Positions 3,033 to 4,592 of a stretch of DNA of 5,030 nt are shown here, piece by piece. Every line of letters begins with the position of its first letter. Position 1 is the first letter of the stretch. The notes under the pieces were generated by a model. It was given only the letters and a program-made list of their open reading frames with translations. It did not search any database and was not told where the DNA came from. Source of the stretch: Kiritimatiellota bacterium (GTDB lineage Bacteria > Verrucomicrobiota > Kiritimatiellia > JAAZAB01); the NCBI GenBank assembly GCA_008636095.1, contig VSJD01000069.1, forward strand, positions 1 to 5,030, written 5' to 3'. A program made the position numbers and the translations under genes.

Positions 3033-3055
3033 ACCAGTGTTTCCGGGGCTCCCAG
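3033..3055 (+). repeat. 23-bp direct repeat, left copy
   Basis: Matches 4570-4592 at 22 of 23 positions (single G/A difference at the seventh base). Begins ACCAGTG and ends GGCTCCCAG. Similarity stops at both ends of the 23 bp. The two copies bracket about 1.5 kb holding the tRNA fragment, the palindrome and the plus-strand gene pair. Confidence 0.7.
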
Positions 3056-3464: not shown

Positions 3465-3530
3465 TTGTATAGCAACCGCTTGACACACGTTACTATACAA
3501 GGTACCTTTTCTTTAGTCCTGTATAGTAAC
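3465..3530 (+). promoter_or_regulatory. Promoter and three-site operator of the plus-strand cassette
   Basis: Promoter: -35 TTGACA (3480-3485, perfect), exactly 17 nt, -10 TACCTT (3503-3508, weak). Three copies of one site overlap it. Site 1 is TTGTATAGCAAC (3465-3476, forward), just upstream of the -35. Site 2 is GTTACTATACAAGG (3489-3502, inverted), filling the spacer. Site 3 is CCTGTATAGTAAC (3518-3530, forward), downstream of the -10 near the expected transcription start. A repressor on sites 2 and 3 would block RNA polymerase. Toxin-antitoxin operons are often autorepressed in this way; which protein binds here is unknown. Confidence 0.65.
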
Positions 3531-3531
3531 C

Positions 3532-3535
3532 GGAG
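3532..3535 (+). promoter_or_regulatory. Ribosome binding site of the 104-aa protein
   Basis: GGAG 7 nt before the ATG at 3543. A closer ATG at 3538 opens a two-codon frame only, so 3543 is the start. Confidence 0.65.
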
Positions 3536-3542
3536 TGATGTC

Positions 3543-3857
3543 ATGAGTATCAAGAGTGTCCTTAGAGAAGAACTGGAGAATTCCCTCCAGATGGAAAAGA
3601 ACTATGCGCGGGAACTGGCTAAGCTCCCCGCGGGCAGCCTTGTTCGCCGCGTCATCAAGGCCCGCGTGTATTATTATCTTGTCTTTCGGGAAAAAGGCCG
3701 CTTTCGCGCCGTTTACCGAGGCAAGGCTGGTGCCGCCGAGATCGAGAAATTCAGAAGGGCCAAGGAATACCGTGCCAAGTATCGCCGACTGCTTTCGCAG
3801 GCCAAAAAGCAAATTCGCTTCCTAAGGAGCGCGTTACGTGGAAAAGAAGCAATATGA
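3543..3857 (+). CDS. Small basic protein, first gene of a nucleotidyltransferase cassette (candidate antitoxin)
   Basis: 104 aa, rich in Arg and Lys. It has an N-terminal helix (about 3-28), a probable beta segment at 31-60 (GSLVRRVIKARVYYYLVFREKGRFRAVYRG) and a long charged helix from 64 to the end (EIEKFRRAKEYRAKYRRLL, then KKQIRFLRSALRGKEAI). The GSLVRR...YYYLVFRE...Y pattern recalls DUF6788-type small proteins, but I cannot confirm the family and no function is known to me. No helix-turn-helix is obvious; the basic surface could bind nucleic acid. The strong ribosome binding site and the elaborate operator upstream mean it is controlled together with the next gene, whose GTG lies 20 nt inside its 3' end. 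In toxin-antitoxin operons a small basic first gene is often the antitoxin and autorepressor; that role is inferred here. Confidence 0.85.
   Translation: MSIKSVLREELENSLQMEKNYARELAKLPAGSLVRRVIKARVYYYLVFREKGRFRAVYRGKAGAAEIEKFRRAKEYRAKYRRLLSQAKKQIRFLRSALRGKEAI
3824..3829 (+). promoter_or_regulatory. Ribosome binding site that fixes a GTG start
   Basis: A perfect AAGGAG 8 nt before the GTG at 3838. It lies within the upstream coding sequence and supports GTG as the start of the nucleotidyltransferase. Confidence 0.75.
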
Positions 3858-4515
3858 ATTATGCCGCGAGGTCTTACGGCGTCTGGACCAGTGTGGTTTG
3901 CTCAACAACTTGATCATGATCGGTAGCTGGTGCCTGCTCTTCTACAAGGACTACTTCCAACAAAGCTCTTACCGGGCCGCTATCCGGACCCGCGATCTCG
4001 ATTTCCTCATCCCACTTCCGCAACGATTCGCGGTCAAGGTCGATCTACATGACCTTCTACGGGATCTCGGCTTCGTCATTAACTTTAAAGGGCAGGACGG
4101 CTGGATCACCTTGCAACATCCGGACCTTATCATCGAGTTCCTTATACCCGAACGTGGCCGAGGTACGCACAAACCAGTGCTTGTTCCGGACCTTGGCGTT
4201 AACGCGCAATCCCTGCGTTTCCTGGATTTTCTCGCCACGGATACGATTCGCGTACGCTTTCACGATCTTATCTTACGAGTTCCACACCCGGCTAATTTTG
4301 CCCTGCATAAACTCATCATCGCCTCGCGCCGACAAAGCGATAAAGGGGAGCGTGACCGAAGCCAGGCCGTTCAGGTTCTTCAAGCCCTGATCCAATCAGG
4401 AGAGAAGGCAACCATCCGTGCACGATTCAGTAAAGCTCCAGCCAAGTGGCAGACCTGTATTCGCAAGAACCTTGCCGAAATGAAGGAAGATAATATTTTG
4501 GCTGTCCTCGTTTAA
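3838..4515 (+). CDS. Nucleotidyltransferase-fold protein, NTP_transf_8/GSU2403 or AbiEii-like
   Basis: 225 aa from a GTG with an excellent ribosome binding site. Nucleotidyltransferase marks: MIGSWCLLFY with G29-S30 (27-36), TRDLDFLIP with metal ligands D53 and D55 (51-59), and a third acidic residue E100 in LIIEFL. After the core comes VPHPANFALHKLIIASRRQ (148-166) followed by KGERDRSQAVQVLQALI (169-185), the helical segment typical of AbiEii-like and GSU2403-family proteins. All three acidic ligands are present, so the enzyme is probably active; substrate unknown. AbiEii-type toxins are nucleotidyltransferases that stop growth, some by modifying tRNA, and serve as phage-abortive toxins with an AbiEi partner. 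Here the partner is not AbiEi but the 104-aa basic protein, with a 20-nt overlap. The gene ends in TAA at 4513-4515. The family assignment comes from motif recognition only. Confidence 0.88.
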   Translation: MEKKQYELCREVLRRLDQCGLLNNLIMIGSWCLLFYKDYFQQSSYRAAIRTRDLDFLIPLPQRFAVKVDLHDLLRDLGFVINFKGQDGWITLQHPDLIIEFLIPERGRGTHKPVLVPDLGVNAQSLRFLDFLATDTIRVRFHDLILRVPHPANFALHKLIIASRRQSDKGERDRSQAVQVLQALIQSGEKATIRARFSKAPAKWQTCIRKNLAEMKEDNILAVLV

Positions 4516-4569
4516 TAGTAACGGATTTCCGGCGGGAATGAGCGGTGGAAACTTGGCGACCATTCCGCG

Positions 4570-4592
4570 ACCAGTATTTCCGGGGCTCCCAG
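4570..4592 (+). repeat. 23-bp direct repeat, right copy
   Basis: Same orientation as 3033-3055, 22 of 23 bases identical. It lies 54 bp after the stop of the nucleotidyltransferase gene. No transposase or terminal inverted repeat is found between the copies. Confidence 0.7.

Follow-up and report, generated by a model that had tools for sequence, protein, structure and literature searches.

The contig VSJD01000069.1 of a Kiritimatiellota bacterium raises the question of what kind of system is formed by two overlapping genes, a small gene (SM) and a nucleotidyltransferase gene (NT), which follow a promoter with operator-like repeats. The window analysed here, 5,030 nt in length, is one whole contig (C338) of an assembly of 357 contigs, and the genome is 87% complete. 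The two genes probably form a toxin-antitoxin (TA) system, in which NT would be the toxin, and SM both the antitoxin and a repressor that reads its own operator. It is also quite possible, and less secure, that SM represents a new class of DNA-reading antitoxin, whose sheet residues 34, 47, 54 and 56 spell the four-base core of the operator while Y45, R49 and Y58 hold the constant TGT/TAAC. Such a code might have diversified across phyla, which would insulate co-resident modules from one another. The genes and their translation signals in the window are:

3532-3535, plus strand: ribosome binding site of SM, GGAG, read from the sequence
3543-3857, plus strand: SM, ATG start, 104 aa; predicted antitoxin and operator-binding repressor
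3824-3829, plus strand: ribosome binding site of NT, AAGGAG, within SM, read from the sequence
3838-4515, plus strand: NT, 225 aa, GTG start; nucleotidyltransferase of the NTP_transf_8 family, predicted to be MenT-like in fold; predicted toxin

The two reading frames overlap by 20 nt. The initial annotation had described an overlapping pair, a ribosome binding site for each gene, and operator-like sites ahead of them, and all of these were confirmed in the sequence. No second copy of SM or NT was found in the 87% of the genome that is available.

Pairing and distribution of SM and NT

A profile of NT relatives was used to collect 80 loci, picked blind to their neighbours, from a collection with one genome per species. 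SM is located immediately upstream of NT in 77 of these loci, and the remaining three start inside NT at a contig end. The proposal of a pair had been made to depend on whether NT homologues mostly occur without the small gene; SM precedes NT in all 77 loci with upstream DNA. The 80 loci carry at least 12 phylum-level labels, including Omnitrophota, Elusimicrobia, Margulisiibacteriota, Planctomycetota, Nitrospirae, Deltaproteobacteria, Acidobacteriota, and Cloacimonadota. Searches with SM detected it in 8 of the 194 genomes from the phylum of the window (its own genome counted), and in a second phylum in 80 of 384. As is general for TA systems, the adjacent pair moves as a unit and its distribution is patchy.

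The NT-profile loci and the SM searches were combined into a set of 134 distinct SM genes. A whole or partial NT match follows directly after SM in 126 of them, and the overlap is exactly 20 nt in 101 of those. Moreover, the sequence identities of SM and NT are correlated (r = 0.82, 107 pairs). No additional neighbour family recurs in more than 8 of the 80 loci, and the same neighbour survey revealed no transposase family that recurs beside the module. Of the 80 loci, contig ends truncate 5, and 62 are intact. In the other 13, NT is disrupted while SM is whole; the converse, a whole NT beside a broken or absent SM, does not occur. This gene-loss pattern is modest evidence, because NT is about twice as long as SM and assembly errors contribute. 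Six solitary SM genes (L018 on the minus strand, L083, L119, L127, L128, and L154) are followed by at least 650 nt of DNA and have kept their dyads. At L083 (1501-3315), the solitary SM has an ATAG operator, and a helix-turn-helix gene and a HipA-like gene stand in the place of NT.

NT is a member of the Pfam family PF12281 (NTP_transf_8; 91 bits, cut-off 26.3), which is matched by 93 of 93 NT relatives. It keeps the T/S51-x-D53-x-D55 motif, E100, and K158. The nucleotidyltransferase ligands named at first (GS, DxD, and E100) are indeed present and near-invariant across 107 aligned relatives: S30 in 104 of the 104 with a letter at that column, D53 in 105/105, D55 in 103/105, and E100 in 107/107. 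The fold of NT is predicted to resemble that of the MenT toxins, and fold matches and alignment together give the nucleotidyltransferase fold, the T/S-x-D-x-D motif, and the catalytic lysine that characterize MenT and AbiEii. The residue equivalence between NT and MenT1 would follow from the order and spacing given in the papers. The AbiEii/DUF1814 model PF08843 did not match NT at E values up to 1, nor any of the 93 NT relatives at E values up to 0.01.

Operator and its proposed reader

The operator-like sites exceed chance. An inverted pair of 11-bp half-sites (TGTnnnnTAAC), placed across the promoter, is found upstream of SM in 127 of 134 loci, whereas shuffling the upstream DNA leaves 2.0 of 134 on average. 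The corresponding features in the window are:

3466-3476, plus strand: O2, lone upstream half-site TGTATAGCAAC, read from the sequence
3480-3485, plus strand: -35 box TTGACA, read from the sequence, starting 9 nt before O3
3489-3499, minus strand: O3, half-site TGTATAGTAAC (GTTACTATACA on the plus strand)
3503-3508, plus strand: weak -10 box TACCTT, 17 bp past the -35 box, placed by the sequence and the -10 position of the family consensus
3520-3530, plus strand: O4, half-site TGTATAGTAAC, forming with O3 the 42-bp dyad 3489-3530

O3 and O4 have a start-to-start spacing of 31 bp and the core ATAG, and form the sole full dyad in the window; the partner of O2, expected for an upstream dyad, is not in the window. 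Among the 127 dyad loci, 102 have their half-sites 31 bp apart from start to start, and 15 have them 33 bp apart. With the spacing left free, a distance of 31 clearly predominates (134 of 260 site pairs; runner-up, 26). Many loci have a second dyad about 58 bp further upstream. In 88 loci both dyads are clear, and in 82 of these they have the same spacing; among the 21 such loci with a downstream spacing other than 31, the upstream spacing agrees in 19. TTGACA begins 9 nt before O3 in 71 of the 102 loci with 31-bp dyads, and the family consensus has a TATA-like -10 after O3; the presence of a promoter hexamer alone is a weak signal (96/102, compared with 74.3 in shuffles). Across 11 whole genomes, the general pattern matched 17 sites, 16 of them at the module promoter; in one of these genomes (G202) the pattern was not matched, and the reversed-pattern control gave zero sites in the 11. 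With its sites confined in this way to the module promoter, the pattern is an operator private to the module and not the box of a regulon.

Two other observations concern the operator sequence. The stretch ATAGTAACGG at 4516-4525, immediately 3' of the NT stop, is a portion of an operator half-site. At L179 (1501-1540; G194:C5:2133-2172), another dyad of this type, a perfect one, precedes by 148 bp an operon whose last gene is AbiEii (PF08843, E = 1.8e-25). The first gene of that operon is AbiEi-like by our own reading, with no Pfam match, and the dyad could possibly reflect cross-regulation or be a remnant.

The predicted model of SM (predicted local distance difference test score, pLDDT, 92.5) consists of a helix (3-27), three strands (32-38, 41-50, and 53-60), and a second helix (64-100). 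No AbiEi-type or helix-turn-helix family matched SM, so that the initial view of SM as something other than an AbiEi-type antitoxin holds. No convincing Pfam family was found (best E = 0.16), and neither NCBIfam, PADLOC, nor HEPN families gave a match. A fold comparison of both proteins had been proposed, and it was informative for NT (predicted MenT-like); for SM no significant match was obtained in the PDB. The SM sequences have a mean pairwise identity of 48% (over 107), and Y45, R49, and Y58 are the same in every one of 127.

The operator core varies together with SM. In dyads selected without use of the core, the mean identity of the 5-nt core is 92.9% for the half-sites of one locus and 63.5% between loci, and the within-locus value was reached by 0 of 10,000 permutations. 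Covariation was tested in 107 of the 127 dyad loci (those with an NT segment longer than 150 aa). Raw mutual information, which placed NT Q93 on top, was set aside as confounded by ancestry. Because of this confounding, and because contrasts between pairs were underpowered, the analysis relied on background-corrected mutual information computed across 289 columns from the two proteins, together with permutation of the core within clades. The three columns covarying most strongly with the core are SM 56, 34, and 47, and NT 93 is closely behind. In the within-clade permutation, the mean z was 3.44 for the SM sheet, 1.09 for the SM helices, and 1.03 for NT with one clustering; it was 2.97, 0.69, and 0.64, respectively, with another. 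SM residues 34, 36, 45, 47, 49, 54, 56, and 58 would lie on one face of the modelled sheet, an assignment made from the strand register given by the strand limits (tight turns 39-40 and 51-52) rather than from coordinates.

Residues were tallied against cores in 92 loci, those with matching cores in their two half-sites. F56 is found in 26/26 ATGG loci, A47 in 12/16 TTGG loci, and F54 in 4/4 ATAG loci, the window among them. K34, Q47, and H or Q56 occur together in 14/15 AGTG loci; Y56 is present in 8/10 TAGGT, 5/5 TGGGT, and 5/9 TGGTT loci. The proposed code, which is part of the same tentative claim for SM and no firmer than it, might be written as follows: F56 for ATGG, A47 with F56 for TTGG, and F54 for ATAG; mostly A34 with Y56 for TAGG and TGGG, and S or Q34 for most TGGT; and K34, Q47, and H or Q56 for AGTG. 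Four genomes carry two divergent copies whose operators can be read, and in each of them the two cores differ. The two copies at L018 have an identical core, and G162 has three near-identical copies, of which the two readable cores are the same.

Several results weigh against this interpretation. F56 also occurs in 4/4 TAGGC loci. NT Q93 (window 4114-4116) covaries as strongly as the best SM columns, perhaps through a contact between NT and SM, and the off-face SM residues R35, K39, and G52 also score high. The strictest nearest-pair contrast was underpowered and not significant after correction. A weak point of the window's own promoter is that the -10 box TACCTT is poor and the promoter scan made no call for the SM-NT promoter. 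The TA reading has a limit of its own, in that the fixed pairing with SM is restricted to the short NT branch: among 49 NTP_transf_8 rows, 34 are beside an SM match, while 15, from distant relatives, are not, and 12 of these 15 have frames of 269-291 aa.

Proposed function of the module and alternative explanations

In the proposed mechanism, an SM dimer would bind the 42-bp dyad through one face of the sheet, the half-sites being 31 bp, or about three helical turns, apart. Y45, R49, and Y58 would contact the constant TGT/TAAC, and residues 34, 47, 54, and 56 the variable core. SM bound to the dyad would cover the -10 box and turn the operon off, and free SM might keep NT inactive, perhaps via its long helices. 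Loss of SM would then let NT act and open the promoter together. By analogy with MenT, the targets of NT may be tRNA 3' ends. The covarying operators would keep several modules per cell from regulating one another.

The module was compared with known nucleotidyltransferase systems; the literature used also includes PMC10435456 and PMC11375011, each in part. AbiE (AbiEi-AbiEii) and Rv2827c-Rv2826c have a nucleotidyltransferase and an upstream partner, as does SM-NT. According to the portion of PMC7319586 consulted, AbiE and Rv2827c are autoregulated at inverted repeats in the promoter, and likewise placed repeats can be read in the SM-NT sequence. Rv2827c is described there with two pairs of repeats, which, as far as that text goes, much resemble the two dyads of SM-NT. 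The AbiEi-type antitoxins are given in the same portion as winged helix-turn-helix proteins with 23-bp repeats 3 or 13 bp apart; by contrast, the half-sites of SM measure 11 bp and are spaced 31 bp, and SM itself is modelled as helix-sheet-helix and matches none of these antitoxins in sequence. In MenAT1 (MenT1-MenA1), the toxin differs from NT, which lacks the DUF1814/AbiEii match. MenA1, by the part of its published description consulted, has 68 aa without a DNA-binding domain; for SM a sheet is predicted, and its operator is conserved. SM-NT most likely works like AbiE and MenAT yet belongs to neither: the DUF1814 model does not match NT, and SM lacks both the winged helix-turn-helix of AbiEi and the published build of MenA1. 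The HEPN/MNT systems (type VII) also consist of two genes including a nucleotidyltransferase; however, SM is no HEPN protein, and NT is larger and from another Pfam family.

Profile comparison (hhalign E = 0.00033, probability 38.5) gave SM a remote similarity to DUF6788 (PF20586) that covers the GSL...YYL...GK core. PF20586.3 matched neither the SM of the window nor any of 119 relatives at E values up to 0.01; the newer PF20586.4 is precomputed for 111 of 120 listed relatives, and not for the window's own cluster (P0001). As in SM-NT, the small DUF6788 gene stands just before a larger one, but its larger partner is a transposase, unlike NT. For example, the DUF6788 genes at L224, L227, and L231 immediately precede IS66-family transposase genes, which suggests a transposon accessory role for the family. 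A C-x4-C-x-C motif is invariant in 10 DUF6788 sequences and absent from SM, which has no cysteine. At L007 (1285-1794), an SM-like domain is joined to an HNH nuclease domain directly upstream of an ordinary SM-NT pair. The DUF6788 proteins beside IS66 and this HNH fusion hint at a DNA-binding ancestry for SM.

The TA part of the initial proposal, a TA or abortive-infection module, is strengthened by the pairing in 77/77 loci and the predicted MenT-like fold; the defence part is not, as PADLOC gave no match for SM or NT. Four defence families appeared among the 93 NT relatives, with one member each (E = 0.003 to 0.009). These weak matches were judged to be chance, and a defence system was rejected. 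No published description of the SM-NT pair was found in the literature on DUF6788/PF20586, NTP_transf_8/PF12281/GSU2403, and the TA nucleotidyltransferases of Omnitrophota. The module is TA-like; its functional kind is known, its antitoxin is of an uncharacterised type, and its operator apparently co-evolves. If true, the nucleotidyltransferase TA systems would gain a widespread branch that occurs mainly in uncultivated phyla and whose antitoxin resembles neither AbiEi and MenA1 nor the HEPN partners. It would also be a natural experiment in protein-DNA recognition, with an operator and its presumed reader changed together across many loci; since the residues and bases are named, the code could be tested with unaltered natural homologues.

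SM might instead be a true autorepressor of a non-toxic NT, which nucleotidylates a small molecule, lipid, or RNA benignly under SM control. This is unlikely, though the best placed of the alternatives: the fixed pairing with one small overlapping gene, the several copies per genome, the occurrence of solitary SM but no solitary NT, and the lack of a recurrent metabolic neighbour are all more usual for a TA system. Modification of SM itself is considerably less probable. In HEPN/MNT systems, tyrosine is modified, and NT could similarly nucleotidylate SM, perhaps at Y45 or Y58, and thereby switch its DNA binding or disarm it as the harmful partner. The invariance of both tyrosines and the covariation of NT Q93 with the operator are consistent with this; however, DNA contacts would keep the tyrosines invariant just as well, no HEPN family matches SM, and SM is unlikely to be toxic alone because six solitary SM genes exist.

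Surroundings and possible mobility of the module in the window

The module, for which a TA system is the preferred reading, is flanked by 23-bp direct repeats at 3033-3055 and 4570-4592. A third, imperfect copy is present in the same genome on contig C315 at about 6526 (L237). Taken alone, this copy equals the reversed control (one match each, with up to 3 mismatches); its surroundings match both ends of the element, with 79% identity over 108 bp on the left and 96% over 48 bp on the right. The C315 element has about 150 bp between its ends and no module, and it shares other dispersed repeats with the window element. The module is also absent from the one same-genus and the one same-family genome sampled. 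The empty element and these absences would fit an acquired module and are not proof of one. That the pair is a selfish cassette or a regulator remnant of a mobile element, with sites serving movement rather than regulation, is the least probable of the explanations in spite of these repeats and the DUF6788 proteins beside IS66 in the three loci checked, since the dyad has a fixed, operator-like place relative to the -35 box and no transposase family recurs beside the module.

Other origins were also considered. A viral origin was rejected, as a scan of viral contigs with the SM profile confirmed no relative. A plasmid or phage origin was likewise set aside, with no SM found by tblastn in plasmids and no NT in phages; SM in phages and NT in plasmids were left unsearched. 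No Rfam match was obtained in the window. By eye, the segment 3177-3223 resembles a tRNA 3' half that runs from the TTCGA arm to CCA; no tRNA is called in the window, and parts of it recur in the genome in other contexts (L239, L240).

Other genes of the window lie on the minus strand. A HEPN gene (1985-2416; PF05168, E = 1.5e-23) and an overlapping gene for a minimal nucleotidyltransferase (2376-2780; PF01909, E = 2.5e-08; MntA-like, below the NCBIfam cut-off) lie 0.8 kb from the module. Together they make up a second pair in the window, which is type VII-like. A large open frame at 3-1748, cut by the contig end, contains Ig-like, RCC1-repeat, and DUF1573 domains, and its product is probably a secreted or surface protein.
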